Source: an uncultured Alphaproteobacteria bacterium (GTDB lineage: Bacteria > Pseudomonadota > Alphaproteobacteria > MPNO01 > UBA830). Taken from it: a stretch of DNA of 49,899 nt. The notes below the pieces were generated by a model. It did not search any database and was not told the DNA's origin. It saw only the letters and a list, made by a program, of their open reading frames with translations. The position numbers were made by a program, and so were the translations under genes. Every line of letters begins with the position of its first letter. Position 1 is the stretch's first letter. Positions 21,139 to 49,058 of the stretch are shown in pieces. The DNA lies in the NCBI GenBank assembly GCA_913047365.1, contig CAJWUK010000004.1, positions 1-49,899 on the forward strand. Direction: 5' to 3'.

Positions 21139-22281
21139 ATGGCCTATATCGACGCGGATTCGCACGTCTACGAAGTCGAGGAAACCTGGGATTACCTGCC
21201 GAAAAAATACAGGGACAGACGCCCCGTCGCGGTAACGATATCGCCAAAGGATGCGCCCTACATGGGGGTCGACAACTCCTTCTGGCTGGTTGACGGCAAG
21301 GCGATGCAGTGGACTTGGGGTCCCGGAACCATCCAGATCGGTTGCCCGCTGACATCGGTTCATGCCGGCATGAAGGAATTTTCGGTTGGTAACCAGTCGC
21401 TGATGGACGTGCCAGCCCGACTGGCGGACATGGACCGCGCCGGGGTGGACGTGCAGGTGATTTATCCGACACTGCTTTTCGCGCCCATGACCGATGACGA
21501 CGATTTTCAGGCGGCGCTGGAAATCAGCTACAACAAATGGATTGAGGAACGCTGTTCCGAAGCGCCCGGCCGCCTGAAATGGTCGGCATCGCTGCCGCTG
21601 CGCAATCCGAAAATGGCGGAAAAAGAAGTCTTCCGCGTTAAGGATGCTGGGGCGGTCAGCCTGATGTGTTACGGGACCGTGAACGACACCATGCTGCACC
21701 ACCCCAAATTCGATCGCGTCTGGGCGGCTGCCGCGGAATGCAACCTGCCGATTGCCATCCATGTCGGCTGGCCGGGACCCTTGCGCCAGATGTGCGACGA
21801 GCATTCGTCCTCTCTGAACGTATCCTTTACGCTGCCGTTGCTGATCGGTTTCTATTCCTTCGTCGGCGGCGGCGTCCTCGACCGGCACCCCAAGCTTCGG
21901 TCCATTTTTCTGGAAGGCGGGGCAGGATGGATCCCTTGGTATCTGGAACGGATGGATCACTATTACCCGGTGGCTGAATTCTTTCGGGGATCCTTCGGCT
22001 TAGAACCGATCACGTCGAAAAATCCGGAAAGCTATATGGATCGCATATTCACGACCTGCGAAGCGGGCGAACGCCTGTTGCCGCAGGTGATCGATTATCT
22101 GGGCGAAGACAACATCATGGTGTCGGAGGACATGCCACATCTGGAGGCGCGCGAGGGCTCGGGCGATGACCTGTCCGCCCGCCGCGATATATCCAAGCGC
22201 CAGAGGGAGAAGATCCTGTTCGACAACCCGTCTAAATTCTATGGCATCAAGGTCAAAAAGAAGAAGGTGAAAAAGAAGTGA
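21139..22281 (+). CDS. Amidohydrolase family protein (amidohydrolase_2 / ACMSD-like)
   Basis: A 380-residue TIM-barrel metal enzyme. The first metal site reads YIDADSHVYE; a His ligand follows in AIHVGWPG, then a conserved LEGGAGWIPWYLERMD. The late acidic site is SEDMPHLE, matching the usual S-D-x-P-H motif. This branch includes 2-amino-3-carboxymuconate semialdehyde decarboxylase and other non-hydrolytic decarboxylases or hydrolases of aromatic breakdown products. The C-terminus ends in a Lys-rich tail (KKKKVKKK). It is followed after 13 bases by an SDR gene on the same strand, so the two are probably one operon. The substrate is unknown. Confidence 0.87.
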   Translation: MAYIDADSHVYEVEETWDYLPKKYRDRRPVAVTISPKDAPYMGVDNSFWLVDGKAMQWTWGPGTIQIGCPLTSVHAGMKEFSVGNQSLMDVPARLADMDRAGVDVQVIYPTLLFAPMTDDDDFQAALEISYNKWIEERCSEAPGRLKWSASLPLRNPKMAEKEVFRVKDAGAVSLMCYGTVNDTMLHHPKFDRVWAAAAECNLPIAIHVGWPGPLRQMCDEHSSSLNVSFTLPLLIGFYSFVGGGVLDRHPKLRSIFLEGGAGWIPWYLERMDHYYPVAEFFRGSFGLEPITSKNPESYMDRIFTTCEAGERLLPQVIDYLGEDNIMVSEDMPHLEAREGSGDDLSARRDISKRQREKILFDNPSKFYGIKVKKKKVKKK

Positions 22282-22294
22282 CTGGCGGGCGGTC

Positions 22295-23062
22295 ATGACA
22301 CCGAACCATCCGACAACGGGCGTCGCTTTTATCACCGGCGCCGGCGGCGGTATCGGCGGGGCGACGGCGGAGCGGTTGGCCGCGGGCGGCGTGTCGGTGG
22401 CGGTCACCGATTATCGCCAGGATTTGGCTGACGAAGTAGTGGCCCGCATTCGGGAAAACGGGGGAACGGCCAAGGCGTATGCCCTTGATGTTACCGAAGC
22501 CGCTGAGGTGAAAAATATCATCAGTGTGGTGGAAGAGACACTGGGGCCCATTGATCAACTGGTCAACACCGCTGGTATATTCCAGTGGGCGCCCGCTGAA
22601 GACATCACCGATCAGGACTTCGAGGCCATGTTCCGGGTGCACGTATTCGGCATGCATACCGTCTGCCGGAATATCCTCACCGGAATGCAGCAGCGGGGTG
22701 CCGGCGCAATCGCCAACGTGACGTCTATCCACGCCATACGCGGCCAATCTCTCACGGCGCACTACTCTGCTGCGAAGGGGGCAATACTGGCCTATACGAA
22801 GTCGCTGGCGCGGGAAAAATCGCCACTGGGAATCCGGGTCAATGCGGTCGCACCGGGGCCCATCGATACACCGCTCTGGCGCGGTGGCATGGCGCAGGAA
22901 GACCTGGAACAGAAGATGACGGAGCGGTCCAAGGTGATCCCGCTGGACCGTCTGGGTACGGCGGATGAGGTGGCTGCCGGGATCGTCTTCCTGTTATCGC
23001 CCGCCGCCAGCTATCTGACCGGCCACATTATGACCATCGACGGCGGAGAAGTGATGAATTGA
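22295..23062 (+). CDS. Short-chain dehydrogenase/reductase
   Basis: A 255-residue classical SDR. It has the Rossmann motif TGAGGGIG (about residues 14-21), NTAG in place of the common NNAG, the catalytic Ser in NVTSIHA, and YSAAKGA with Tyr and Lys. Asp after the second strand (VAVTD) hints at NAD preference. It probably oxidises an alcohol or reduces a ketone in the same pathway as the amidohydrolase upstream. Its end lies 4 bases from the convergent SDR gene. Confidence 0.9.
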   Translation: MTPNHPTTGVAFITGAGGGIGGATAERLAAGGVSVAVTDYRQDLADEVVARIRENGGTAKAYALDVTEAAEVKNIISVVEETLGPIDQLVNTAGIFQWAPAEDITDQDFEAMFRVHVFGMHTVCRNILTGMQQRGAGAIANVTSIHAIRGQSLTAHYSAAKGAILAYTKSLAREKSPLGIRVNAVAPGPIDTPLWRGGMAQEDLEQKMTERSKVIPLDRLGTADEVAAGIVFLLSPAASYLTGHIMTIDGGEVMN

Positions 23063-23066
23063 CGGT

Positions 23067-23834
23067 CTAATGCACCGTCTGCCCCCCGTCGACGACAATC
23101 GAAGCGCCGTGGACGTAGGACGCAGCGTCGGACGCCAGAAAGGCGATAACGTTGGCAATCTCGTCGCACTCAGCAAGACGGCCCAGCAGTGCAAGCTCTT
23201 CGACGATGCTGCCGTCGACCATGCCTGAATCGATATAGTTCTTAACCCGGGGTGAGAGCGTCGCGCCGGGGCAGACGCCGTTGACGCGAATGTTCTCACG
23301 GCCGTAATCGACCGCTAGTTGCCGGGTCAGAGACAGCACACCGCCCTTGGCTGCACAGTAAACCGGCATTTCCGGGTGACCGATGATCCCGAAAGTGGAC
23401 GCGACATTGACGATGGATCCGCCCCCGTCTGCTTTGCGCAGCATAGGCAGGAACGCCTTGCACATGTAGTAAACGCTGGACAGATCGATCCCGATGATCC
23501 GGTGCCAGTCGTCTTCCTCCAGTTCTTCCAGTTTTTTGACGAAATTGGTGCCCGCATTGTTCACAACCGCTTTGACGCGATCGTGTTTTGCGCCAACCGC
23601 CGCCGCCAATGCGTCCACTTGCGATTTGTCCGATACGTCGGTGACGTGGCCTTCGCAGGAAGCACCCATGTTGCCCAAAATCTTTTCGGTTTCGCGGACG
23701 TTTTCTTCGGTCTTGCTAACCACGATGACGTGGGCGCCCAGCTCGGCGAGCGCCTCGCAAGTTGATCGTCCGATACCCTGGCCGCCACCGGTCACCACAA
23801 CCGGGGCGCTCTCGAATTTCAGTTGGTTCAGCAT
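23067..23834 (-). CDS. Short-chain dehydrogenase/reductase, last gene of LLM operon
   Basis: A 255-residue classical SDR with TGGGQGIG at the N-terminus, VNNAGTNF, catalytic Ser in NVASTFG, and YCAAKGG. It is preceded by AGGAAA and starts 9 bases after LLM gene A, so it is almost certainly co-transcribed with the two monooxygenases, the alpha/beta hydrolase and the crotonase. A dehydrogenase at this point suits oxidation of an alcohol released by monooxygenation or hydrolysis. It is not a close copy of the convergent SDR at 22295, judging by the different motif surroundings. Confidence 0.9.
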   Translation of the reverse strand: MLNQLKFESAPVVVTGGGQGIGRSTCEALAELGAHVIVVSKTEENVRETEKILGNMGASCEGHVTDVSDKSQVDALAAAVGAKHDRVKAVVNNAGTNFVKKLEELEEDDWHRIIGIDLSSVYYMCKAFLPMLRKADGGGSIVNVASTFGIIGHPEMPVYCAAKGGVLSLTRQLAVDYGRENIRVNGVCPGATLSPRVKNYIDSGMVDGSIVEELALLGRLAECDEIANVIAFLASDAASYVHGASIVVDGGQTVH

Positions 23835-23843
23835 CTGGTTTTC

Positions 23844-25037
23844 CTATTCGGCAGCGGCAGCGGACAGTTCGAAGCCCGCGTAATGATTTTCGTCGAGCGC
23901 CTGCAGGGCTGGCACCACTTCCGCGCCTAGCAGGCGCAGGTTCTTCTCTGTCAAATCGGCGGGCAGGGTGCCGAATTGAGGCATTATCAACACGTGTTCG
24001 AACCCGGCCTGACGGTGACGTTCGATCAGGGTGTCGCGTACCGTATCCGGGCTGCCCACGACGATAACGCCACGCTGCATCAGATCTTCCACCTTCTGGC
24101 CGCCTCGCAGCGTCGCCTTGTGGGCGAATATCTTTTTCATGGATGACGCCGTCATGTAGCCCGGCGGTACGAACATCGACTGCGATATTTTGGGCAGGAA
24201 GGTGTTGAACAGGGATTCGATATGCGGCCGCACTTCCTCCATCGCCTGCTCGTCCGTTTCCGCACAGTACACCGGCACGCTCCAGGCTATCTGGCCAGAA
24301 GATGCCGTATAGCCGTAGTTCTGCTCCGCCACCGACCGATACATGTTCAGATAGCGCAACACGCTTTCGAAGGCTGAATACGCCTGCAGGTAAACGTATT
24401 TCCGGTCCGGATGCGCGGCCCATTCAATGGTTTCGGTCGATCCCTGGGATGGGCACCAGATCGGCGGGTGCGGATCCTGATAGGGCCGCGGCCACATATT
24501 CACGTACTCGAAGTGATAGTGCTTGCCTTCAAACGCAAACGGACCCGTCTCGGTCCAGGCGCGGACCACCAGATCGTGCGCCTCGATATGGCGTTCCAGG
24601 GAATAGGCCGGGTTCACCCCCATGGAGAAATATTCGCAGCCCACGCCACGTACCATGCCGGTAATCAGCCGACCGCCGGTGATGTTGTCGATCATCGCGT
24701 GTTCTTCCGCGAGCGTCAGCGGGTGTTCGCGGAGCGCAAAGGCGTTGCCCAGGATCGCGATCTTGCATTTCTCGGTGTTGCGGGCCAACGCCGCCGCCAT
24801 CACCACGGGCGACGGCATCAGCCCATAGGCATTCTGGTGATGTTCGTTGACGCTGATCCCGTCAAAGCCTACTTCAGCGGCCAGTTCCAGTTCATCCAGG
24901 TAGCGGTTGTACAATTCGTGCCCGATTTTGGGATCGAAATAGCTGTTGGGCAGCTTCAGCCACACTGAGTTGTGCTCTTCCGCATAGCTCATATCGAGAG
25001 CCCCGTAGGGCATTAGGTGAAACGCGAAAACTTTCAT
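23844..25037 (-). CDS. LLM-class flavin-dependent monooxygenase A
   Basis: A 397-residue bacterial-luciferase-like protein. It opens MKVFAFHLMPYGALDM, with VNEHHQNAYG, then AILGNAFALREHPLTLAEE, GRLITGMVRG and IWCPSQGSTETIEWAA, all hallmarks of the luciferase fold that binds reduced FMN or F420. Members hydroxylate, desulfonate or perform Baeyer-Villiger oxidations with reduced flavin from a partner reductase. It is a clear paralogue of the adjacent LLM gene B, nearly identical in the central block. No flavin reductase gene was seen in the window. AGGAAG precedes the ATG. Confidence 0.92.
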   Translation of the reverse strand: MKVFAFHLMPYGALDMSYAEEHNSVWLKLPNSYFDPKIGHELYNRYLDELELAAEVGFDGISVNEHHQNAYGLMPSPVVMAAALARNTEKCKIAILGNAFALREHPLTLAEEHAMIDNITGGRLITGMVRGVGCEYFSMGVNPAYSLERHIEAHDLVVRAWTETGPFAFEGKHYHFEYVNMWPRPYQDPHPPIWCPSQGSTETIEWAAHPDRKYVYLQAYSAFESVLRYLNMYRSVAEQNYGYTASSGQIAWSVPVYCAETDEQAMEEVRPHIESLFNTFLPKISQSMFVPPGYMTASSMKKIFAHKATLRGGQKVEDLMQRGVIVVGSPDTVRDTLIERHRQAGFEHVLIMPQFGTLPADLTEKNLRLLGAEVVPALQALDENHYAGFELSAAAAE

Positions 25038-25118: not shown

Positions 25119-26309
25119 TTATTCGGCGGCCGCCTGCGCCGGCTCGAACCCGCGATATTCGTTGTCGCTCAGTGGCTGAATCGCGGGGAGAACTTCTTCC
25201 GCGAACAGGCGGATATTTCGTTCGGTCTTATCGGCGGGCAGGGTCCCGAAATGGAGCAGGGCAACGAAGGTACCGAAGCCCAGCACTTGATGGCATTCGA
25301 TGAGCTTTTTGCGGACGGTTTCAGGGCTGCCAACAAGGACGACTCCGTTTTCCATCAGGGTCTCCATCTTCGCCCCGCCCGTGATGTTGCGTTTGTGGGC
25401 GGCGACCCGCTTGTAGGATTGCATCGACATGTATCCCGGCGGGAACAGCTGTTCGAACGGCAGGTACAGGAACTTGTTGAACAGCGCCTCCATATGTTCG
25501 GTCGCTTCTTCAACGGCTTGTTCGTCGGTGTCGGCGATATAGACCGGCGCTGTCCAGCCGATCTGGTCGGACGATGCATCGTAACCGTATTGCGATGCAG
25601 CTACTTCGCGGTACTGGTCAAGGAATTTGCAGACATTGGTGAATGGGCTGTAATTCTGGGCATAGACGTATTTTCGGTCCGGATGTGCCGCCCATTCAAT
25701 GGTTTCGGTCGACCCTAGCGAGGGACACCAGATCGGCGGGTGTGGGTCCTGATAGGGGCGTGGCCACAAATTCACGTATTCGAAGTGGTAGTGTTTGCCT
25801 TCGAAGGCGAATGGCCCTGTTTCGGTCCAAGCCCGAACGACCAGATCGTGCGCCTCCATGTGCCGTTCGTGGCTGAGCGTCGGGTTGGCCGCAAGCGAAT
25901 AGAATTCCGCGCCGATACCGCGCACGAAACCCGTGATCAGCCGCCCTGCGGTGATGCAGTCGATCATCGCGTGCTCCTCGGCGAGCGTCAGTGGGTGTTC
26001 ACGCAAGGCAAAAGCATTGCCCAGGATGGCAAGCTTGCATTTCTCGGTCCGCCGGGCGAGCGACGACGCCATTACCACCGGTGACGGCATCAGACCGTAT
26101 GCGTTCTGATGATGTTCGTTCACGGCCACCCCATCGAAACCGACTTCCGCCGCCAGTTCCAGCTCGTCCAGGTACCGATTGTACAGCTCGTGGCCGATTT
26201 TCGGGTCGTATAGCGAGTTAGGCAGTGTAATCCATGCGGAGGGGTGCTTGTCACGCTCCGACATGTCGAGCGATGCGTAAGGCATCAGGTGGAACATAAA
26301 GGCTTTCAT
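25119..26309 (-). CDS. LLM-class flavin-dependent monooxygenase B
   Basis: A 396-residue paralogue of the next gene downstream, sharing HELYNRYLDELELAAEVGFD, AYGLMPSPVVMA, REHPLTLAEEHAMID and EGKHYHFEYV word for word. The ends and the region around residues 230-330 differ. ATG 26309 (MKAFMFHLMPYASLDM) matches the paralogue's start; the ATG at 26387 is rejected because it would overlap the upstream hydrolase gene. Two adjacent, equally long LLM paralogues recall the LuxA/LuxB heterodimer. Whether these pair, or act on successive substrates, is unknown. Confidence 0.92.
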   Translation of the reverse strand: MKAFMFHLMPYASLDMSERDKHPSAWITLPNSLYDPKIGHELYNRYLDELELAAEVGFDGVAVNEHHQNAYGLMPSPVVMASSLARRTEKCKLAILGNAFALREHPLTLAEEHAMIDCITAGRLITGFVRGIGAEFYSLAANPTLSHERHMEAHDLVVRAWTETGPFAFEGKHYHFEYVNLWPRPYQDPHPPIWCPSLGSTETIEWAAHPDRKYVYAQNYSPFTNVCKFLDQYREVAASQYGYDASSDQIGWTAPVYIADTDEQAVEEATEHMEALFNKFLYLPFEQLFPPGYMSMQSYKRVAAHKRNITGGAKMETLMENGVVLVGSPETVRKKLIECHQVLGFGTFVALLHFGTLPADKTERNIRLFAEEVLPAIQPLSDNEYRGFEPAQAAAE

Positions 26310-26343: not shown

Positions 26344-27129
26344 TCAGGCGGCTTTTGACTGCAGGAACCCCGAAACGGCTTCGACAAAGGGTTCCGACTG
26401 TTCGATGTGTGGCAGGTGCCCCGCCTTTTCGATCATGGTCACTTCAGAACCTGCAATTATTTTGCCGAATTCCGCAGCGTAGGCCGGATCGACGATCTTG
26501 TCGGTGTCACCCCAGATCACGTGGGTTGGTACTGTGATGCGGTGCAGCCATTTGCGTAGGTTTGGATTGAAAAGACGCGGTTGCCAGCCGAGGCGCGCCG
26601 TCGCTACCCGGTTACGAATTTGTATATCCAACTGCTCTTCGGTCAGCTCCATATTCAAGATGTTGTCTGCGTATGATTGGTCAACGAAAATCTCACGCAC
26701 CAGATCGTCGGGATCCATCATGAAGATATCGGCGATGGGCTTTCCCGCGATGCGAATACCTGCCGCACCGACAAGTGTCAGGCTTTTCAGCCGTGTGCAG
26801 TTCCGCACCGCGATTTCCATCGCCAGCCAGCCGCCAAGCGAATTGCCTACCAGATGGACGCCTTCCAGATTCATCTGATCGAGGAAATCCAGATAGAACA
26901 TGGCGAGATCTTCCATCCCGTCTAGCCACTCCGGTTCGTCAGACAGACCATAGGTCGGATGGTCCGGCACCATCAGGTCATGTGTTTCGGACAGGGCCTG
27001 GAAAGTCGGTATCCAGCCGGCGACGCCGCTGGCACCGTGCAGGAATAACATCGGTTCGCCCGACCCGCCCCGGCGCAGATACATGCCCGTTCCCCTAATG
27101 TCGATTTTGCTTTCGGTGCAGTCAGCCAT
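26344..27129 (-). CDS. Alpha/beta hydrolase (meta-cleavage-product hydrolase-like)
   Basis: A 261-residue hydrolase. The oxyanion motif is LFLHGASG, the nucleophile elbow LVGNSLGGWLAM, an acid lies in VIWGDTDKIV, and the catalytic His is in EKAGHLPHIEQ. The layout matches carbon-carbon hydrolases and lactonases of aromatic catabolism (MhpC/BphD group) and general esterases. ATG 27129 follows GGAGAAAACGG and starts 13 bases after the crotonase stop. In this operon it could open a lactone made by a Baeyer-Villiger LLM enzyme or cleave a C-C bond; both are inference. Confidence 0.88.
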   Translation of the reverse strand: MADCTESKIDIRGTGMYLRRGGSGEPMLFLHGASGVAGWIPTFQALSETHDLMVPDHPTYGLSDEPEWLDGMEDLAMFYLDFLDQMNLEGVHLVGNSLGGWLAMEIAVRNCTRLKSLTLVGAAGIRIAGKPIADIFMMDPDDLVREIFVDQSYADNILNMELTEEQLDIQIRNRVATARLGWQPRLFNPNLRKWLHRITVPTHVIWGDTDKIVDPAYAAEFGKIIAGSEVTMIEKAGHLPHIEQSEPFVEAVSGFLQSKAA

Positions 27130-27142
27130 CCCGTTTTCTCCG

Positions 27143-27979
27143 TTACTTCTTTGCGTTTTCATGCCCGCCGAGGCCGGGCTTGTATTTCTTGTCGAGGAAA
27201 TCGCCGATTCCTTCTTCCCGGAATGCATTGGCCTGCCGCGCCGTGTGCTGCGATTGCAATGACGAGGCATAATCCATGGCAACATCCCATTCCATGTCCA
27301 TGGAATTGCGGTAAATCTCCCGTGTAGCCTGAAGGGCGGACGGATCCTTGTCGGCGATTTCACGCGCGAGCGCCATCACGTCATCGCGCAGCTTATCCCT
27401 AGGAATGGCGTAATTCACGAGCCCGATATCGGCGGCGATCTGTCCGGTCATCGGCCGGCCGGTCAGGGAATACAGCATGTAGTCCCGCGGGCGCAGCAGG
27501 TTACCCATGGATTTGCCGACGCTGCCGCCGGGGAACATTTTGAAATTGATCTCGCTGAGCCCCATCTTGGCGTCTTCTGCAGCGACCGCCAAGTCGCATC
27601 CTTCAACGATGGTGAATGCGCCGCCAAAACAATGGCCGTTGACCATGGCGATGGTGGGTTTGGGAAACAGTCGCAAGGTCCGGCCACGCCATTCTACGGC
27701 GACGCGATGGGCACGGTCGTATTCAGCCGGCTTGTCCTGCAGTTCAATGAAGAATTCTTTCAAATCCATGCCGGCACAGAAGGATTCCCCGGCCCCTGTA
27801 ATAACCAGAACCCGGCATCGATCTTCGTTTCGCAGACGTTCAAGCGCGTCGGTGATTTCCTCACCCAATGTCGGGTTCATCGCGTTGCGTTTTTCCGGTC
27901 GGTTCAGTGTCAGAAGGCATACGCCATCGTCGAATTCGACAAGCAGCGTTTCGTAGTCATATCTCTCTGAGTCGCCCAC
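27143..27979 (-). CDS. Crotonase, hydroxycinnamoyl-CoA hydratase/lyase-like with altered active site
   Basis: A 278-residue enoyl-CoA hydratase superfamily protein. NRPEKRNAMNPTL, ITGAGESFCAGMDLKEFF, PTIAMVNGHCFGGAF, GLSEINF and the tail FLDKKYKPGL align by eye with p-hydroxycinnamoyl-CoA hydratase/lyase (HCHL, vanillin- or 4-hydroxybenzaldehyde-forming). The catalytic Glu is kept (E143). From memory of the Pseudomonas enzyme, however, Ser123 is Thr, Tyr75 aligns with Phe, and Tyr239 aligns with Ser. The Tyr pair holds the substrate's para-hydroxyl, so the substrate probably lacks one. It starts at GTG 27979 and is the first gene of the minus-strand operon, divergent from marR. Confidence 0.85.
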   Translation of the reverse strand: MGDSERYDYETLLVEFDDGVCLLTLNRPEKRNAMNPTLGEEITDALERLRNEDRCRVLVITGAGESFCAGMDLKEFFIELQDKPAEYDRAHRVAVEWRGRTLRLFPKPTIAMVNGHCFGGAFTIVEGCDLAVAAEDAKMGLSEINFKMFPGGSVGKSMGNLLRPRDYMLYSLTGRPMTGQIAADIGLVNYAIPRDKLRDDVMALAREIADKDPSALQATREIYRNSMDMEWDVAMDYASSLQSQHTARQANAFREEGIGDFLDKKYKPGLGGHENAKK

Positions 27980-28000: not shown

Positions 28001-28014
28001 GTTAGCTTGCTAAC
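28001..28014. promoter_or_regulatory. Candidate MarR operator
   Basis: GTTAGC-TT-GCTAAC is a perfect inverted repeat of 6-base arms; the flanks extend the symmetry to 9-base arms with one mismatch (27998-28017). It sits 21 bases upstream of the crotonase GTG, in the 112-base gap shared with marR. The form TTAGC-N2-GCTAA is the kind of compact AT-edged palindrome bound by MarR dimers, and the location lets one dimer control both directions. Binding itself is inferred. Confidence 0.65.
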
Positions 28015-28091
28015 GAAGTGTCCCGCCCCACCGGACCGGAGTCAAGCGCAAGGCGCTTGCCCGAAGCATCCCGGGCGTGTAAATCCGGCGC

Positions 28092-28535
28092 ATGAACAAC
28101 AACGATTATTTCGATCCCGAAGACACGATCGGCTTTCTGCTCTGGGACGCAAACCGGGCAATGAACCGGGAATTTTCCGATCGTATCGCCCGGCAAGGTG
28201 TGTCGCTTGGTCTGTGGCCGTTTCTTCGTGCCCTTTGGGATGGCGATGGGATCACCCAGCGGGAATTGTCGGAGAAAGTTCGCATGAAGGGTCCGACCAC
28301 GGTAGCCGCACTGAACAAGCTGGAGGACCGGGGGCTGGTCCGTCGTGAAGGCGATAAAAAGGATGCGCGTAAGATCAACGTTTTCCTGACGCCTGATGGC
28401 CGCAAGGTTTACCGTAAGGTCATCCCGGAGGTTGAGGCCGTCAATACCCAGTGCCTAACCGACCTTTCTGCGGAAGAGCAGGCGGAATTCAAAAACATGA
28501 TCCGGCGGATCCGCAACAACATCACCGCCGCATAG
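28092..28535 (+). CDS. MarR family transcriptional regulator
   Basis: A 147-residue winged-helix protein. The recognition region reads GITQRELSEKVRMKGPTTVAALNKLEDRGLV, presented in two parts: helix-turn-helix about residues 55-85, then the wing RREGDKKDARKINVFLT with the family's D-x-R tip. MarR proteins of this kind repress catabolic genes and release DNA on binding a phenolic or its CoA thioester, as CouR does in hydroxycinnamate pathways. The gene is divergent from the crotonase operon, shares a palindromic operator with it and is followed by two exporters. The inducer is unknown. Confidence 0.9.
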   Translation: MNNNDYFDPEDTIGFLLWDANRAMNREFSDRIARQGVSLGLWPFLRALWDGDGITQRELSEKVRMKGPTTVAALNKLEDRGLVRREGDKKDARKINVFLTPDGRKVYRKVIPEVEAVNTQCLTDLSAEEQAEFKNMIRRIRNNITAA

Positions 28536-28581: not shown

Positions 28582-29787
28582 GTGAGCCGCGGCCGATACT
28601 TATTCCTGGCCGGCCTGCTTGGGCTGCTGCCCATGTTGCTGCCGTTGTCGGTCGATGGCTCGCTGGCCCTGGTACCCGATATCGCTGCTTATTTCGCCAC
28701 CGATATCGGATCGGTCCAGTTGACGTTGACGGCTGTTGTGCTGGGTATCGCGGTCGGTCAATTGTTTTATGGGCCAGTTTCTGACCGTTTCGGGCGAAAG
28801 CCGGTAATCATTTTTGGGGTTGCCTGCTACGCGTTGGCTGGGACCGGCTGTGCTAACGCGCCTTCGATTGAGTGGTTAATATTTTTCCGGTTTTTGCAGG
28901 GATTTTTCGCCTGTTCCGGTATCATCGTCGCCCGTGCCGTTATTCGAGATATGTTCGATCGCGAAGCAGGCGCACGTTTGTTCGCTCTGATGATGGGCAT
29001 TCACGGCATCATGCCTACGCTGGCCCCGGGGGTCAGCGGTTGGATGACCCAGACCTTCGGCTGGCAGTCCGTATTCTGGGTAATGGTCGGGTTTGGTGTC
29101 TTTACCGGAATTTCGGTCTGGCTTGGATTACCCGAAACTAGCAAGTCTCGGATAGTCAGCGCCACCCGACCGGCCGAATTGCTGGCCAACTATCGCACGA
29201 TATTTCGAAACCGGGCATTCTTATCCTATGCCACCTGCGCATGCTTCATGTATGGGGCACTGATGGCATATTTCGCGGGCGCGCCGGTGGGTTTCATCAA
29301 ATATCTCGGGCTGGTACCGATTGAATTTGGCATTGCCATGGCGGTGCCCATGGTGACCTATGTCGTCACACAGATCGCTGTCGCGCGCCTAGCGCCCAGG
29401 ATCGGTCTGGATCTGATGATCCGGATCGGTGTCTTTTTCGCCGCCATCGCAGGAATCGGAATGTTGGCATTCGTGCAACTGGATATGATCAATATTTACA
29501 CCTTGATCGGACCGGTTGTTCTGGTGCTCGGATCGCTTGCGTTCATTACCCCGAGTACGACGGCCGGCGCTTTGTCGCCGTTCGCGGAAATGGCAGGCGC
29601 CGCGTCTTCGCTTCTCGGCTTCATTCAATTTCTGGCCGCCGCTGCGGCGACAGCCCTGGTCGGACTGCTGAATGACGGCACCCCGGGGCCTATGGCCGCG
29701 GTCATTTGCGTCTGCTGTCTGGGTTCGCTGATCGCCTATCTGGTTCTGGTTTTGCCACTCCGGCGCGTTGATCAGGCCGATCACTGA
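28582..29787 (+). CDS. MFS exporter, Bcr/CflA type (first of tandem pair)
   Basis: A 401-residue inner-membrane protein with about 12 hydrophobic helices. The Bcr/CflA pattern is clear: VDGSLALVPDIAAYF in helix 1, then GQLFYGPVSDRFGRKPVII (the MFS loop 2-3 motif with D-R-x-G-R-K-P). The drug:H+ antiporter-1 motif C follows near LAPGVSGWM. It starts at GTG 28582, 9 bases after AGGAG. It likely exports a toxic acid, aldehyde or drug. It lies 46 bases after marR and 9 bases before a second similar exporter, so marR and both exporters probably form one unit. Confidence 0.9.
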   Translation: MSRGRYLFLAGLLGLLPMLLPLSVDGSLALVPDIAAYFATDIGSVQLTLTAVVLGIAVGQLFYGPVSDRFGRKPVIIFGVACYALAGTGCANAPSIEWLIFFRFLQGFFACSGIIVARAVIRDMFDREAGARLFALMMGIHGIMPTLAPGVSGWMTQTFGWQSVFWVMVGFGVFTGISVWLGLPETSKSRIVSATRPAELLANYRTIFRNRAFLSYATCACFMYGALMAYFAGAPVGFIKYLGLVPIEFGIAMAVPMVTYVVTQIAVARLAPRIGLDLMIRIGVFFAAIAGIGMLAFVQLDMINIYTLIGPVVLVLGSLAFITPSTTAGALSPFAEMAGAASSLLGFIQFLAAAAATALVGLLNDGTPGPMAAVICVCCLGSLIAYLVLVLPLRRVDQADH

Positions 29788-42239: not shown

Positions 42240-43688
42240 ATGGCGTATGAATCCCTCCGTCCCTGGCTTCAGGTGTTGGAGCAGCAGGGCATGTTTAAAT
42301 GGGTCGACAAAGAGGTCGACAAGGACTGGGAGATCGGCTCCGTCTTCCGCATGATCTTCCGTGCAATGGACGAGGAAAACCGATACGGCATTGGATTCCG
42401 GAACATCAAGGGGCATGAAGGCGGCCGGGTTGTCGGCGGGGTGGTGGCATCGTCCCGGAAAATGATTGCGGCGGCGCTTGGCTGCGACCCGTCACTGGAA
42501 GCCATCCACGAACGGGTAACCGGCGGTATGCAAAAACCGATCGAACCGGTGATAGTCGATACCGGACCCTGCAAGGAAGTTATCATCAAGGGCGACAACG
42601 TCGACCTGACCAAGTTTCCGGTTCCGATCTGGACGCCAGAAAAAGACGCCGGGCCGTATCTGACGCCGCTATGGGTGACCAAGGATCCGGATACTGGGCG
42701 ACGCAACATCGGTATTCGCCGCTGTCAGATTAAAGGCAAGGATAGGACCGGTATACTTTTCGGGGCGCCGGACCGGGGTGGGGCGATCCATCACGAAAAG
42801 TACAAGCAGCGCGGCGAACACATGCCTGCCGCGATCTTTGTCGGCGGCGATCCCATCCAGTACCTAGTGGCGCCGGCAAGATACGGCGCGGATGAGCTTG
42901 CCGTCGCCGGCGGCATCCGGGGCGAGGCCATCGAACTGGTAAAGTGCGAGACCGTCGACCTGGAAGTGCCGGCCCACGCTGAGATCATCATTGAGGGCGA
43001 GGTGCTGATGGATCACACCGAACCAGAAGGACCGTTTGGCGAATTCACTGGGTATATGGCGGGCGGCCGGGAGGGCCCGGTGTTCAAGGTGAAATGCATC
43101 ACCCACCGCAAGGACCCCATCGTCATGGGGGTGATCAGTCAGTTCCCGCCGTCGGAATCCTCCATGATCAAGCGGGCGCTGCTGGAAGCGGGGCTGAAGA
43201 AACATCTGACCGAAGATCTCAACTTGCCCGGTATCCACGATGTGCACGCGCTAGAGGCCGGCGGCGGCACGGCGACGCTCTGGATTAGCATAAAAAAGAT
43301 GTATTCTGGCCATGTGGACCAGACTGCGTTCGGTACACTGGGCCATTTCGGGATGAGCTATTTTAAATGGATCGTGATCTGCGACGACGATATCGATATC
43401 AACGATTCATTCATGCGCGACTGGGTAATGGCGTGGAGGGTGCGCCCCGATAAGGACATCAAGACCATACCCGATACCGCCTCGGTCGAGCTGGACCCGT
43501 CATCCTTCGAACCCGGCCTGACCCAGGCTGATATCGGCGGTACCAAGATGGTGATAGATGCGACACGGAAATGGGATTATCCGGCGGTTTCCCTGCCGCC
43601 GCTCGATAAAATGCGGGATGTGGCGGACAACTGGGATGAGTACGGCTTGCCGCCGCTGGATGAGCTGAAACTCCCGCGCGAGGAGTAG
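42240..43688 (+). CDS. UbiD family (prenylated-FMN) decarboxylase
   Basis: A 482-residue reversible decarboxylase of aromatic or alpha,beta-unsaturated acids that needs prenylated FMN. Family marks include GFRNIKGHEGGRVVGGVV, DLTKFPVPIWTPEKDAGPY, a conserved YLTPLWVTKDPDTG, NIGIRRCQ (cofactor and catalytic Arg region) and the acidic active-site loop EPEGPFGEFTGYM. No UbiX gene for the cofactor is visible. It differs from housekeeping UbiD in context: neighbours are hydrolases and catabolic genes. It has a good AGGAG site. It converges on an alpha/beta hydrolase with a 3-base gap. Confidence 0.92.
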   Translation: MAYESLRPWLQVLEQQGMFKWVDKEVDKDWEIGSVFRMIFRAMDEENRYGIGFRNIKGHEGGRVVGGVVASSRKMIAAALGCDPSLEAIHERVTGGMQKPIEPVIVDTGPCKEVIIKGDNVDLTKFPVPIWTPEKDAGPYLTPLWVTKDPDTGRRNIGIRRCQIKGKDRTGILFGAPDRGGAIHHEKYKQRGEHMPAAIFVGGDPIQYLVAPARYGADELAVAGGIRGEAIELVKCETVDLEVPAHAEIIIEGEVLMDHTEPEGPFGEFTGYMAGGREGPVFKVKCITHRKDPIVMGVISQFPPSESSMIKRALLEAGLKKHLTEDLNLPGIHDVHALEAGGGTATLWISIKKMYSGHVDQTAFGTLGHFGMSYFKWIVICDDDIDINDSFMRDWVMAWRVRPDKDIKTIPDTASVELDPSSFEPGLTQADIGGTKMVIDATRKWDYPAVSLPPLDKMRDVADNWDEYGLPPLDELKLPREE

Positions 43689-43691
43689 GGC

Positions 43692-44468
43692 CTATCCCAC
43701 AGCCCCCAGAAACGCCTTAACCGTTTCCACGAATGCATCTGGCTTGTCTACATGCACCCAGTGGGCGGCATCCTTGATGGTGACGGTGCGGGCATTCGGG
43801 AAAAGTTCTGAAATTCGGTCGTGGTGGTCGGCGCGGATATAGGCTGAATTTTCCCCCGCGATGAACAGTGCCGGCCCGTCATAGGAACCACCGTTTGGAA
43901 CCGGAAACGCGCCTATCGCGCTCATCCCGGCGGAAATCGCCTGCAGGTTTATTCGCCACTGAAATCCGCCATTCGCTCGTTCCAGGTTGGTCATCAGGAA
44001 CGCTGCAACGCCCGGGTCGTCGAACTCGCCGCGTAGTTCTTCTTCCAATTCGCTACGCCGCTGTTCGCCGGATAAATCCATCAACTGCATAGCGGTGATG
44101 TAATCCAGCATGTCGTGGCCATAGGTGACCGGGGCGATATCGACGACAATAAGACCCTTCATCAAATCCGGTTTTTCCAACGCCAGGCGCATGGCTACTT
44201 TACCGCCCATGGAATGCCCCATGACCACGGCGCCCGATAGGTCCTGTGCTGCGATGAAATCGGCAGCATCGCCCGCCATTTCTTCATACGTCATCGATGG
44301 CATCCACGGCGATCCGCCATGATTGCGCATATCGAGTGAGTAGATGCGACAATCATCGGAAAGGGTGCGCGCGATGCTGGCCCAGTTGCGGGCCGATCCG
44401 AAGAGACCGTGCATGACGATCAGGGGGGGGCCATCGGATCCGTATTCGTTGAATGCAAGTTTAGCCAT
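43692..44468 (-). CDS. Alpha/beta hydrolase (YbfF-like)
   Basis: A 258-residue esterase-like protein. MHGLFGSARNWASIA gives the oxyanion region, followed by SLDMRNHGGSPWM, the nucleophile elbow VMGHSMGGKVAMR, FIAGENSAYI and the catalytic His in DAAHWVHVDKPDAF. The pattern fits YbfF-type acyl-CoA or short-chain esterases. The 238 bases upstream (44469-44706) hold no gene; they contain only a weak hairpin near the neighbouring methyltransferase stop. Confidence 0.88.
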   Translation of the reverse strand: MAKLAFNEYGSDGPPLIVMHGLFGSARNWASIARTLSDDCRIYSLDMRNHGGSPWMPSMTYEEMAGDAADFIAAQDLSGAVVMGHSMGGKVAMRLALEKPDLMKGLIVVDIAPVTYGHDMLDYITAMQLMDLSGEQRRSELEEELRGEFDDPGVAAFLMTNLERANGGFQWRINLQAISAGMSAIGAFPVPNGGSYDGPALFIAGENSAYIRADHHDRISELFPNARTVTIKDAAHWVHVDKPDAFVETVKAFLGAVG

Positions 44469-44681
44469 GTGCGGGGAGGTATCATGCCCCCGGAGCTATG
44501 TCACCGCGTTCTGAGCAGTGTCTGTATAGAACCGCATCGATACCACTGTGGAACTTTCGTGCAACTCCCTTTTATGCGCTATGTTTCAACATTATCCGCC
44601 ACTTTCCATATAGATCTATGACGTAACTAAATGCCAGTTTGACGGCGCAAAATGGACATTGGGATCGTAAGTTATTGAGAC

Positions 44682-44697
44682 CCCGGTTCAAGCCGGG
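44682..44697 (-). terminator. Weak terminator-like hairpin after methyltransferase gene
   Basis: CCCGG and CCGGG form a 5-base-pair stem with a 6-base loop, 10-25 bases beyond the methyltransferase stop on the minus strand. There is no clear T run, so it is a low-confidence terminator. Confidence 0.3.
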
Positions 44698-44706
44698 ACG
44701 GCGCCA

Positions 44707-45537
44707 TCACACCTTCTCCGCTACCATCATCACGTTGGTCAATCGCCCTTCCTTCGCGCTCCGGCCTGAATTGGCTCGGCGTTCCGGGTAATCATCGCCT
44801 CGGGTGATTTCGATCGTCAGCGGCGTATCGACCTCGGGCGTAGGCGGCGGCGGGTATTTTTCGGCCGCCTGCCGGCGGGCAGCCTCGTCTACCCATTCGA
44901 GAACACGAAATCCGCCGTTCTCCAGCATGCCGCGCATCTCATCCGGTGGTAGTAAAAAGCTGTAGGAAGCATCCCGCGCCCAGGGCAGGGGATAATAGGG
45001 ATCGCCTCGAGGCCCCTGGCCCAGCTCGCTAATGGCCACCCTGCCGCCGTCTTTCAGCACACGCCACATCTCCGAATATAATTTTTGGCGGTCGCGGATA
45101 TTCATGGTCACGTTTAGCGCCCAGACCATGTCGAACGAGACGTCGTCATAGGGCAGGTCGGTCGCATCGCCGCAATCGAAAGCGACGCGATCCGATAAAC
45201 CAACTTTCCCGGTAAGGATACGGGCGGTGTCGATATATTCCGGGGTGAGGTCGATACCGGTTACGATACAACCGAATTCCGTTGCGAAATAGCGAGCTGG
45301 GCCGCCGATGCCGCAGCCGATATCGAGTAGATGCATGTCTTTCGTGATGGTGGTCAGTGCGGCATGCAACTGGGTCTGTAGCAGGCCACCGCCGTGGATC
45401 TGATCAGCCGGCCCCAGTATTTCGGGTGTCCAGTTTTCCTCAGGGATTCCGGCGGCTTCCAGTACCGCAATAATGCGTCCCGCCAGATCCGGCGTCGCGT
45501 TGTTGTCGTCGTTTATTGCTTTGACTGTCCCGTCCAA
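44707..45537 (-). CDS. Class I SAM-dependent methyltransferase
   Basis: A 276-residue methyltransferase. Motif I is LLDIGCGIGGPARYFA (SAM binding, about residues 71-86), the acidic end of strand 2 is in VTGIDLTPEYI, and a DATDLPYDD motif precedes VWALNVTMNI. The overall look (QIHGGGLLQTQ upstream of motif I) resembles small-molecule methyltransferases such as the glycine/sarcosine or ubiquinone types; the acceptor is unknown. The only plausible start is TTG 45537, which has AGGAAG about 7 bases upstream. It could be co-transcribed with the aldolase gene 89 bases upstream. Confidence 0.87.
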   Translation of the reverse strand: MDGTVKAINDDNNATPDLAGRIIAVLEAAGIPEENWTPEILGPADQIHGGGLLQTQLHAALTTITKDMHLLDIGCGIGGPARYFATEFGCIVTGIDLTPEYIDTARILTGKVGLSDRVAFDCGDATDLPYDDVSFDMVWALNVTMNIRDRQKLYSEMWRVLKDGGRVAISELGQGPRGDPYYPLPWARDASYSFLLPPDEMRGMLENGGFRVLEWVDEAARRQAAEKYPPPPTPEVDTPLTIEITRGDDYPERRANSGRSAKEGRLTNVMMVAEKV

Positions 45538-45626
45538 GAGTTTCTTCCTGAAGTTTTAGTTGTTTTTAAGAGGATCGCCTTTTGCGAGTAGAATAGTTCT
45601 CTCAACCAAATTCTATGCTGCGCCAG

Positions 45627-46322
45627 CTACCTATCCATTTCTGCGGCTTCCATCTCCGCCAGCGCCCAGACTCGGCCTATCGGCCCGCGGGTCCGCAAAA
45701 GTTCCTGCGCTATCTCTTCAATTTCCGCCTCACCGAGAACTTCGTAATCGCCCATCGAAGCAGCGATGGCCGTGCGCCGGGCGTTGTCTTCCATAAAGAA
45801 AACACAGGTCGTCATTTCCTCGATATCGGGTCCGGTGACCACGATGCCATGAGCGCGAAGCAGCATAGCTTTGTGAGGGCCCAGTGTTTCCGCCATGGCG
45901 CGGCCCCGGTCCTCGTCCATGATCAGCCGTGAATCTGGGTGAATAGGAATATGGCTGCCCAATAGTGAGGCCATGAAATAGGTCGGTTTCAGATCGTGTT
46001 CCGACATCGAAAAACTGGTGGCGTTGTGGGTATGAAAATGTGCCACAGCATTTACATCGGGGCGAACCTTGAAGACTTCCAGATGGATGGGCAGTTCGCC
46101 CGGCAGTTTTTCATCGGTGCCGATCTGGTTGCCATCCAGGTCGCATAGCAGGAAATCTTCGGGGTTTGACAATTTGCCAAGCTCATGGGGCGTCATTAAC
46201 ACGACATTGGGATCTTCCGTTCGGGCGCTAATATGGCCGAAACCGTCTACGAACCCGCGGCCATAGAAGAACCGCCAAGCGGTGCTCAGTTTCTGACGTA
46301 AGGCGACTTCTGAATCGGCCAT
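45627..46322 (-). CDS. Class II aldolase/adducin family protein
   Basis: A 231-residue zinc enzyme of the fuculose-phosphate aldolase/RhaD/adducin fold. The metal ligands are the two His of VAHFHTHNATS and a third in LLRAHGIVV. FGHISARTEDPNVVLMTPH is the substrate-phosphate-like region. Members cleave sugar phosphates or decarboxylate/epimerise small hydroxy acids, and many take part in aromatic or C1 metabolism. The start ATG 46322 has GGAGAA about 11 bases upstream. The partner pathway is not evident. Confidence 0.87.
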   Translation of the reverse strand: MADSEVALRQKLSTAWRFFYGRGFVDGFGHISARTEDPNVVLMTPHELGKLSNPEDFLLCDLDGNQIGTDEKLPGELPIHLEVFKVRPDVNAVAHFHTHNATSFSMSEHDLKPTYFMASLLGSHIPIHPDSRLIMDEDRGRAMAETLGPHKAMLLRAHGIVVTGPDIEEMTTCVFFMEDNARRTAIAASMGDYEVLGEAEIEEIAQELLRTRGPIGRVWALAEMEAAEMDR

Positions 46323-46423
46323 GTTTCAGGATTCTCCGTTGCGGCGTGGGTGTCTCGGAATTTTACCGCAACCTATGCAGCCGCTACAGTCACCCCGACG
46401 ATAATACATATGGGGAGGGAACG

Positions 46424-46623
46424 ATGACTACCGATCTGTTTTATCTCGCGCTGCCTGTAGGTCTTTCAGTAATTTTCTGGATACCGAGCGATGCTGCTAT
46501 TCTGTACTAGCAACGGTGGTACTTGCGCTGGTATTTTATAGCGGTATCCCGTTTGTCCCCACAATGGCATTTTCGGTGTGCGTGATCACCGAAACTGTGC
46601 TCTTCCTGCAAATCTTCACCTGA
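46424..46623 (+). pseudogene. Small membrane-protein frame broken by a -1 frame change
   Basis: The 329-base gap before the LLM gene is not empty. ATG 46424, behind a strong GGGGAGGGAACG site, reads MTTDLFYLALPVGLSVIFWI and stops at TAG 46508 after 28 codons. In the -1 frame the sequence continues hydrophobically (SVLATVVLALVFYSGIPFVP, then SVCVITETVLFLQIF) to TGA 46621. Together they would make a protein of about 66 residues with two to three helices. This looks like one small membrane gene with an indel or sequencing error, not two genes. The family is not recognised. Confidence 0.45.
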
Positions 46624-46651
46624 ATTCAAAGCGTACCCGGGAAAATCTTCC

Positions 46652-47710
46652 ATGAAATACGGCCTGTTTTATCTGCCCACTTATCTTCCTGATCAGCGAG
46701 ATGTACATACGCATATCCACAACATCGTGGAACAGGTTGAGTACGCAGACAGTATCGGCATCGATTACGCTTGGATGGTAGAACATCATTTCGTTCGCCA
46801 TGGCGGGTTCCTGCCCGCGAATTATGCGGTCCTCAGTTACCTCGCCGCGCGAACGAAAAATATCCGGCTGGGCACCGGGGCGACGGTTTTGCCGTTGAAC
46901 GACCCGGTGCGGGTGGCCGAACAGGCTGCGACGCTGGACCAGCTTTCCGATGGTCGCCTTGAATTTGGTGTCGGGCGCGGATTTATCCGCGACGAATTCG
47001 ATGCGTTCGGGGTGCCTATGAAGGAAAGCCGCGAACGGGTCGAGGAAGGTGTTGATCTGATCATGAAGGCCTGGGGTGATACGCCGCTGGAATACGAAAG
47101 CAGTTTTCGCCCCAAGATGCCCGGATTGAACGTCCTGCCTAAACCCCGTCAAACTCCGCATCCGCCGATCTGGAATGCGTGTCTGATGTCGCCGGAAAGC
47201 TTCGACTGGACGGCGAAGGAAGGGCATAACCTGCTTTATGTTGCCTACCACGTGGATCACCCCGTCGCGACCGAACGTATCGGCTGGTATCGCGACGCGT
47301 TGCCCAAGTACGGCCGCAAGGTCGAAGATCACGAGGTCTGCTGCGTCTATCATGCCTATTTTATGGAAGATGGTGACGATGCAAAGCTGAAAAGGATCGT
47401 CGATGGGCCGATGTCCGACTACGCAGCCGCGGGAATTGAAGCCGCTAGCAAGCCACCGGACCCCGAGGCCTATAAAGGATACGATCGTCGTGAAGCAGGT
47501 CAGCAACAACTTACCTTCGAGCGATATTTTCCCGGTCGTGTCGTCATGGGCGGGCCGGAGCAGGTTGAAGAACGTATCCGCGAGCTGAAACGCATCGGTA
47601 TCACTCAGGTGTCGTTCCTGGTCGACTTTGGATCTCTGGCCCAGGACGAAATCATGAAATCTCTGCGGATTTTCGGTGAGAAGATCCTGCCGCGCGTTAG
47701 GGATATCTGA
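46652..47710 (+). CDS. LLM-class flavin-dependent oxidoreductase C
   Basis: A 352-residue luciferase-like protein, different in length and motifs from the pair at 23.8-26.3 kb. It opens MKYGLFYLPTYLPDQRD, has AWMVEHHFVRHGG, TGATVLPLNDPVRVAEQAAT, GRLEFGVGRGFIRDEFDAFG and NVLPKPRQTPHPPIWNA. These are hallmarks of the alkanal-monooxygenase-like group using FMNH2 or F420H2. It lies in the same direction as the CoA-transferase and MaoC genes that follow, with a 160-base gap that carries no gene. Confidence 0.92.
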   Translation: MKYGLFYLPTYLPDQRDVHTHIHNIVEQVEYADSIGIDYAWMVEHHFVRHGGFLPANYAVLSYLAARTKNIRLGTGATVLPLNDPVRVAEQAATLDQLSDGRLEFGVGRGFIRDEFDAFGVPMKESRERVEEGVDLIMKAWGDTPLEYESSFRPKMPGLNVLPKPRQTPHPPIWNACLMSPESFDWTAKEGHNLLYVAYHVDHPVATERIGWYRDALPKYGRKVEDHEVCCVYHAYFMEDGDDAKLKRIVDGPMSDYAAAGIEAASKPPDPEAYKGYDRREAGQQQLTFERYFPGRVVMGGPEQVEERIRELKRIGITQVSFLVDFGSLAQDEIMKSLRIFGEKILPRVRDI

Positions 47711-47870
47711 TGCAGAAAATGCAATCCGCCGGGTCTTCGCGAAATGCAGGGGTATTGGTATAACGGGAAGTGATGAGGGTGGGGTCGCATAAGATGTGGA
47801 AGTTTCTTCCGTGGATGTTTCTGGCTTTTCTGATTTCGCCACCAATCCTGATACACCCCGCTAAAGTGTG

Positions 47871-49058
47871 ATGACCGCCCCACTCGATGGTCTTCGCGTT
47901 CTGGACCTGACCTCCGTTGTCCTTGGCCCGTTGGCCACACAGACACTGGGAGACATGGGCGCGGATATTGTGAAGATTGAAGGGCCCGCGGGCGATACCA
48001 CGCGATATACGGGCCCTAAACGGTCGAAGGACATGTCGGCGCTGTTCATGGGGCTGAACAGGAACAAGCGGTCCATCGTTCTCGATCTTAAGCAACAGGC
48101 GGCAAAGGACGTTCTGTGGCGTTTGATCGACACTGCAGACGTTTTCCTGCATTCGATCCGACCTCAGGCCATAGATCGGCTGGGCTTCGGGCACGAAGCT
48201 GTGCTCGCCCGGAATGAGCGGGTTGTTTACGCTGGCGTTCACGGGTTTCGCATGGATGGGCCCTATTCCGGCCGGCCCGCTTATGACGATGTCATCCAGG
48301 GTCTAAGTGGCAGCGCCGATCTGATGGCCCGACTGGTCGGTGAGCCGCGCTATATGCCGACCATCATGGCGGACAAGACCACCGGCCTTGTGACGGTAAA
48401 TGCAATACTCGCCGCATTGCTGGAGCGCGAAAAATCCGGAAAGGGCCAGTTCGTCGAGATTCCCATGTTCGAGGTCATGACCGCCTTCAACATGGCGGAT
48501 CACATCTTCGGCCATGCGTTCGACCCGCCGGAAGGGCCGATGGGCTATTCCCGCGTGCTGACGCCATCGCGGCGTCCTTACAAAACGCTGGACGGCTATA
48601 TCTGTCTGCTCGCCTATACTGATCCTCAGTGGGAACGGTTCTGGTCAGAGGTGGGTCGGCCGGAACTGAAAGACGACCCCCGCTTCGATTCCCTCGCTAG
48701 CCGGGCAGACAACATCGAAGCGGTCTATAGCCTAGCCGGCGAATTTATCGCTACGCGAACAACCGCCGAATGGCTGGAAGTTTTGCCGCGTTTGGAAATA
48801 CCCTGTGGAGAAATCGTCGAACTGGAAGATATTCCGTCCGATCCGCATATGCAGGCCGTCGGTTTTTTCCGCAACGAAGAACACCCGACCGAGGGTGGCG
48901 TAACCGTGCCTGATATTCCCGTGCAATTCAGCCGCACACCTGGCTCGATCAGCCGGCTGCAGCCCAAGCTAGGGGAACACAGCGTCGAGATCCTGCGGGA
49001 GGCGGGGTACGGGGACGACGAAATTGAAAATTTTCGCGCGAGAGGCGCAACTGGTTGA
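47871..49058 (+). CDS. CaiB/BaiF family III CoA-transferase
   Basis: A 395-residue formyl-CoA/carnitine-type CoA-transferase that moves CoA between organic acids. It opens PLDGLRVLDLTSVVLGPLAT and continues LGDMGADIVKIEGPAGDTTR, then NRNKRSIVLDLK; the catalytic Asp is in YDDVIQGLSG. The acceptor acid is unknown. ATG 47871 is preceded by a possible GTG at 47868. It is followed after 14 bases by the MaoC-like gene, suggesting that an acyl-CoA made here is then hydrated. Confidence 0.92.
   Translation: MTAPLDGLRVLDLTSVVLGPLATQTLGDMGADIVKIEGPAGDTTRYTGPKRSKDMSALFMGLNRNKRSIVLDLKQQAAKDVLWRLIDTADVFLHSIRPQAIDRLGFGHEAVLARNERVVYAGVHGFRMDGPYSGRPAYDDVIQGLSGSADLMARLVGEPRYMPTIMADKTTGLVTVNAILAALLEREKSGKGQFVEIPMFEVMTAFNMADHIFGHAFDPPEGPMGYSRVLTPSRRPYKTLDGYICLLAYTDPQWERFWSEVGRPELKDDPRFDSLASRADNIEAVYSLAGEFIATRTTAEWLEVLPRLEIPCGEIVELEDIPSDPHMQAVGFFRNEEHPTEGGVTVPDIPVQFSRTPGSISRLQPKLGEHSVEILREAGYGDDEIENFRARGATG

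Follow-up and report, generated by a model that had tools for sequence, protein, structure and literature searches.

A Variant Alphaproteobacterial Branch of the Hydroxycinnamoyl-CoA Hydratase/Lyase Family with a Changed Residue Signature in Its Predicted Acyl Pocket

Introduction

Hydroxycinnamoyl-CoA hydratase/lyase (HCHL) is a bacterial enzyme which cleaves plant hydroxycinnamic acids to vanillin-type aldehydes. A contig of an uncultured Alphaproteobacteria bacterium (CAJWUK010000004.1) encodes a crotonase closely resembling it. The window analysed here is the whole stretch of 49,899 nucleotides, and the question is whether this crotonase is an HCHL in the proper sense or an enzyme for another substrate. 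The original prediction held that the catalytic Glu was kept and the tyrosine pair Tyr75 and Tyr239, which we take to be contacts to the para-hydroxyl group, was lost, and from this loss it proposed a substrate without that hydroxyl, processed by another kind of cleavage or by hydration alone. The features discussed below are collected in Table 1.

Table 1. Positions of the crotonase gene, its key codons and surrounding features in the window.
Feature	Position	Strand	Remarks
HCHL-like single-Glu crotonase	27143..27979	minus	278 aa, intact, GTG start
Phe76 codon TTC	27752..27754	minus	at HCHL Tyr75; alignment
Thr123 codon ACC	27611..27613	minus	at HCHL Ser123; alignment
Glu143 codon GAG	27551..27553	minus	retained catalytic Glu; alignment
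Phe146-Lys147 codons TTC AAA	27539..27544	minus	for canonical Trp146-Gly147; alignment
Ser239 codon TCG	27263..27265	minus	at HCHL Tyr239; alignment
Alpha/beta hydrolase, esterase/MCP-hydrolase-like	26344..27129	minus	13 nt downstream of crotonase
LLM_1, luciferase-like flavin monooxygenase	25119..26309	minus
LLM_2, luciferase-like flavin monooxygenase	23844..25037	minus	70% identical to LLM_1
SDR_B, short-chain dehydrogenase	23067..23834	minus
SDR_A, short-chain dehydrogenase	22295..23062	plus	convergent; near operon orthologues in L010, L022
PF04909 amidohydrolase-superfamily protein	21139..22281	plus	top PDB match PtmU3
Putative MarR operator, inverted repeat GTTAGC-N2-GCTAAC	28001..28014
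TTGACT, possible -35 before crotonase operon	28040..28045	minus	consensus only; position hand-counted
MarR-family regulator	28092..28535	plus	divergent
Bcr/CflA-type MFS transporter	28582..29787	plus	adjoining MarR
CaiB-type CoA transferase	47868..49058	plus	candidate CoA supplier; ~5 kb from crotonase in UBA7314 relative (L009)

Family Assignment and Fold

The sequence AGGGG a few bases 5' of the crotonase start codon fits a ribosome-binding site. Against the NCBIfam profile NF006588 (p-hydroxycinnamoyl CoA hydratase/lyase) the protein scored 316.7 bits, above the equivalog cut-off of 276, and its top PDB sequence matches were 6P5U and the HCHL entries 2J5I/2VSS/2VSU. The AlphaFold2 model had a mean pLDDT of 86.3 and a pTM of 0.86. 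In Foldseek, the nearest folds were the HCHL structures 6L3O, 2VSS and 2J5I, with rmsd mostly of 1.6-1.7 Å over ~238 columns at 41-46% identity. Foldseek yielded no residue pairs, and the active-site residues were therefore assigned by sequence, with MAFFT alignments to the 2J5I chain. Site numbers are those of HCHL (2J5I).

Ordinary enoyl-CoA hydratases (crotonase proper) use a second Glu, at the position equivalent to 123. Ordinary crotonases of the window's own genome (L004 and L007) carried Glu at both 123 and 143, against Thr at 123 in P0001. The second hydratase Glu was absent from our crotonase, which has Thr123, and an ordinary two-Glu hydratase is therefore unsupported. Since this Glu is missing, HCHL-type chemistry is still possible. 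By alignment, the crotonase retains the residues of the CoA-binding and oxyanion sites and has Glu143 as its single catalytic Glu; oxyanion-site Gly120 and Met70 and the catalytic Glu143 were found in 15/15 members of the clade to which the crotonase belongs.

Active-Site Residues

The four assignments read by eye in the original prediction agreed with the MAFFT alignments. E143 of the query fell on HCHL E143 in separate alignments, T123 on S123, F76 on Y75, and S239 on Y239. When realigned with the solved HCHL 2J5I, the crotonase had Tyr at neither 75 nor 239. An alignment artefact was rejected as the source of these changes, because the separate alignments agreed and no gap lay near any of the four sites. 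Pseudogene drift was also rejected, as the same residues were fixed in 15 intact orthologues.

The four sites did not prove equally telling. Thr was the commonest residue at position 123 in the canonical branch (17/22 sequences), and FerB of SYK-6 (7XWC) has Gly there. Ech of Streptomyces V-1 carries Thr at T132 (PMC10487757), which by our numbering matches HCHL position 123. Tyr239 was missing from solved relatives, being Ile in 7XWC and Ala in 6P5U, and given these two enzymes the Ser at 239 of the crotonase is not a strict mark of difference. Within the clade this position was variable (S, A, G, N, F, M, L). Tyr75, on the other hand, was kept in every reference enzyme compared (2J5I, 6P5U and 7XWC) and in 21/22 canonical-branch sequences, the exception being L053 with Phe. 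The crotonase does not have it, and Phe75 was present in 15/15 clade members. As solved feruloyl-CoA-type enzymes do without Tyr239, only Tyr75 carries weight, and judged from the alignment its loss is the informative one among the four sites. Modelling of Streptomyces Ech gave Y83 (matching Tyr75) as a highly consistent feruloyl-binding residue and showed Y248 (Tyr239) hydrogen-bonded to the phenol (PMC10487757). A literature search found no direct evidence on Y75F or Y239F mutants. In the paper on 2VSS/2VSU, Glu143 is said to be essential and Y239F reportedly raises KM.

Further changes, which the original prediction did not mention, were seen beside the catalytic Glu, where the EINWGI/LPG motif of HCHL reads EINFKMFPGG in the crotonase. 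On the alignment, Trp146 to Phe and Gly147 to Lys are stronger changes than those noted before. Phe146 and Lys147 were both found in 15/15 clade members, against Trp146 and Gly147 each in 22/22 canonical and 13/13 deltaproteobacterial-type relatives. The crotonase also had His for Trp116 and Ile for Pro124. Clade members shared a mean identity of 67% (minimum 55%), and because F75, F146 and K147 were invariant despite this divergence, they are held in place beyond chance. No fixed Tyr appeared at the lost positions among clade members. Beyond residue 75, 13/15 members have gained a Tyr at position 87, and it is possible that Tyr87 could take over the hydroxyl contact. F75 together with EINFK[MLI]FPGG makes an easy short marker for the branch.

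Phylogeny and Distribution

A maximum-likelihood tree with 61 rows placed the 15 clade sequences together on one side of a branch, separate from the one that carries 2J5I and 6P5U (SH-aLRT 99 for the latter). The crotonase thus did not group with the characterised HCHLs. Variovorax L026 and Eremiobacterota L035 branched just outside the clade. Members were found in 9/27 genomes of the window's order (E <= 1e-100), in several Hyphomicrobiales, in the isolate Roseomonas sp. OT10, where the gene is plasmid-borne, and in 3/385 sampled genomes of the class (E <= 1e-75). The clade is real but uncommon.

Gene Neighbourhood

The crotonase is the first gene of a compact five-gene stretch, in which it is followed by the alpha/beta hydrolase, two luciferase-like monooxygenases (LLMs) and a short-chain dehydrogenase (SDR), with intergenic gaps of 13, 34, 81 and 9 bases. 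Two MFS transporters and a MarR gene are divergent from it. The 112-bp gap between the crotonase and MarR genes holds GTTAGC-TT-GCTAAC, the sole such match in the window. Related palindromes, TTAG-N4-CTAA, preceded the orthologues in L009 and L011-L015, with a degenerate one in L022; upstream of the orthologue in L010, a locus without a MarR gene, there was none. As palindromes were kept in relatives with MarR and absent from L010 without it, there is good sequence evidence for reading the repeat as a putative MarR operator, and the operon is probably MarR-controlled.

The nearest solved relatives of the LLMs include alkanal monooxygenase and bacterial luciferase and, more distantly, diketocamphane monooxygenase. 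SDR profile matches were unspecific, with 232-237 families each. SDR_A matched BadH (2-hydroxycyclohexanecarboxyl-CoA dehydrogenase) with an E value of 5.5e-55, below the BadH cut-off. Neither a CoA ligase nor an aldehyde dehydrogenase was found in the window (tblastn, E 1e-8, single reference queries), so the neighbourhood was not of the HCHL type. A literature search for the crotonase gene cluster found nothing.

The PF04909 protein next to SDR_A shares an N-terminal DSHVxE stretch with PtmU3, which has been grouped with the dinuclear metal monooxygenases of the amidohydrolase superfamily (PMC10811679). By this resemblance it may be an oxygenase and not a decarboxylase. Further along the window (42240-49058) there is a UbiD-family decarboxylase, a class II aldolase-like protein, a third LLM and the CaiB transferase. 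In the UBA7314 relative (L009/L113), the aldolase-like protein, the third LLM and the transferase are encoded near the crotonase operon, which suggests that these genes and the crotonase operon form a shared catabolic region.

Among relatives, the layout of PurB-MFS-MarR facing crotonase-hydrolase-LLM was kept in Defluviicoccus. The other half of the clade had as partners an acyl-CoA ligase, an acyl-CoA dehydrogenase, a citryl-CoA lyase-like protein, a CaiB transferase and TTT transport proteins. Because the two clade branches differ strongly in neighbourhood, a single shared substrate is not assured. A CoA ligase was nearby in 7/16 clade loci, for which reason the substrate is probably a CoA-activated acid. 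An aldehyde dehydrogenase was near 0/16 clade loci and 22/38 canonical loci (Fisher p 3.6e-5, near-duplicate loci counted, one aldehyde dehydrogenase query). With near-duplicates removed the difference was not significant (0/10 vs 4/14, p = 0.11), and the contrast is only a hint.

In the nearest relative, from UBA7314 (L009:9640-10350; contig of L113, genome G005), a shortened LLM_1 is joined, in a different frame, to the end of SDR_B. LLM_2, the remainder of LLM_1 and the greater part of SDR_B are missing, and the crotonase and hydrolase are intact. The junction reflects a true deletion or was created in assembly.

Genome Context

The window's genome is a 3.0 Mb assembly, 84% complete, in which the aromatic-pathway check covered three families. 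No PobA above cut-off was found in this assembly. Intradiol and LigB-type dioxygenases were present, which makes aromatic catabolism of some kind likely. LLM_1 matched at 30 places in the genome, a striking expansion, and pairs of LLM and alpha/beta hydrolase genes recurred on contigs C4, C126, C147, C153 and C172. A third HCHL-like gene (L112, G000:C44:1789-2628) has Phe75, Ala239 and Gln70; an acyl-CoA dehydrogenase and a fragment of a CoA ligase precede it, and TTT transport genes follow.

Proposed Function and Alternatives

The crotonase represents a variant branch within the HCHL family and has an HCHL-like catalytic core. We did not file it as HCHL proper because Tyr75 was lost, the tree placed it apart and its neighbourhood was different. 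Our preferred reading, with a probability of about 0.55, is a CoA-thioester hydratase of this family that belongs to a distinct alphaproteobacterial branch, has a rebuilt acyl pocket, is probably a retro-aldol lyase and acts on a substrate without a gripped para-hydroxyl. In such an enzyme Glu143 would add water to an alpha,beta-unsaturated acyl-CoA and would then probably split the product by a retro-aldol reaction into acetyl-CoA and a carbonyl compound. The substrate would lack the para-hydroxyl gripped by HCHL, and our guess is an acrylyl-CoA bearing an aryl or alicyclic group. Its carbonyl or ring product might then pass to the flavin monooxygenases, hydrolase and SDR for further processing, a step we propose with low confidence. 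The substrate proposed originally is therefore plausible, in view of the F75/W146F/G147K signature, the placement in a branch of its own and the differing gene neighbours, but the argument from a tyrosine pair was overstated, as 7XWC and 6P5U also lack Tyr239. The Tyr gained at position 87, the lack of a CoA ligase among the tblastn matches in the window and the unlike neighbourhoods of the two clade branches also count against our preferred reading.

An ordinary HCHL with drifted residues would convert feruloyl- or p-coumaroyl-CoA to the aldehyde and acetyl-CoA, with the para-hydroxyl ungripped or gripped elsewhere. The score above the HCHL equivalog cut-off and the Tyr gained at position 87 are in its favour, as is the fact that 7XWC and 6P5U are described as lyases without having Tyr239. 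The 6P5U entry is titled 'enoyl-CoA hydratase/aldolase isolated from a lignin-degrading consortium', and FerB_B11, a consortium enzyme of such description, made vanillin (PMC5863372); we infer that the two are the same protein. The MarR gene beside the crotonase also recalls ferulate loci, where the regulator FerC is of the MarR type (PMC5863372). This explanation is nevertheless unlikely, because Y75 and W146-G147 were lost in all clade members and kept in 2J5I, 6P5U and 7XWC, a vanillin-type aldehyde dehydrogenase and a CoA ligase were not found in the window, and no PobA scored above cut-off in the assembly, at the completeness given above.

A simple hydratase without retro-aldol cleavage is a further alternative; the neighbouring SDRs would then oxidise its hydroxyacyl-CoA product, in a route that is alicyclic or resembles beta-oxidation. 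The adjacent SDR_A and SDR_B, the BadH match of the former and the clade loci without an aldehyde dehydrogenase nearby speak for it. This reading has a low probability, as the second Glu of ordinary enoyl-CoA hydratases is Thr, the SDR matches fit very many families, and the aldehyde dehydrogenase contrast lost its significance once near-duplicates were removed. The crotonase superfamily catalyses diverse reactions, and Lys147, which is new, invariant and four residues past Glu143, might be a substrate-binding group, for example for a carboxylate, in some hydrolysis, decarboxylation or isomerisation. We consider such a reaction very improbable, since all characterised enzymes nearest to the crotonase in sequence and fold were hydratase/lyases.

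An extension of the hydratase-lyase reading is that the whole branch serves non-phenolic substrates and that, in the Rhodospirillales operon, the released aldehyde or ketone goes to the LLMs and the alpha/beta hydrolase (a Baeyer-Villiger type oxidation, then ester or lactone hydrolysis) and not, as is usual, to an aldehyde dehydrogenase. This would be an undescribed catabolic route, and we regard it as speculative and rather improbable.

The automatic name of the crotonase is likely misleading. Annotation pipelines name such genes p-hydroxycinnamoyl-CoA hydratase/lyase, as in the Roseomonas plasmid copy, and the capacity for lignin or ferulate degradation may be over-assigned in genomes carrying clade genes. 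The substrate of this branch would reveal the requirements of the HCHL pocket for cleavage and the residues that determine its specificity.

Comparison with Known Systems

The crotonase was like the HCHL structures 2J5I/2VSS/2VSU and the P. putida FCHL 6L3O, with ~43% identity over the fold. It shares with them Glu143, Met70, Gly120, Gly151, Tyr237 and the C-terminal KPGL motif, and differs in Tyr75Phe, Tyr239Ser, Trp116His, Trp146Phe, Gly147Lys and Pro124Ile, as well as in its operon partners. FerB of Sphingomonas paucimobilis SYK-6 (7XWC) and 6P5U belong to the same family and are likewise without Tyr239. Unlike the crotonase, both keep Tyr75, Trp116, Trp146 and Gly147, and 6P5U lies in the branch of characterised HCHLs.

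A closer counterpart was LPC08_RS25060 (WP_230453165.1) on plasmid pOT10-1 of Roseomonas sp. OT10, annotated as a p-hydroxycinnamoyl CoA hydratase/lyase. It is 58.7% identical to the crotonase and has the same F75/F146/K147, with Phe at 239 in place of Ser. Its neighbours (L119) are a CoA ligase, an acyl-CoA dehydrogenase, a citryl-CoA lyase-like protein, a CoA transferase and TTT transport proteins; this block is broken by an IS5-family transposase gene.

The paralogue L002 in the same genome (contig C126; L111, G000:C126:1-8008) is also of the HCHL family and 44% identical to the crotonase. It keeps Tyr75, Trp146 and Gly147 and has Met at 239. Two LLM genes and two alpha/beta hydrolases adjoin it, which recalls the crotonase operon, but unlike the crotonase it also adjoins a FerA-like NDP-forming CoA ligase.
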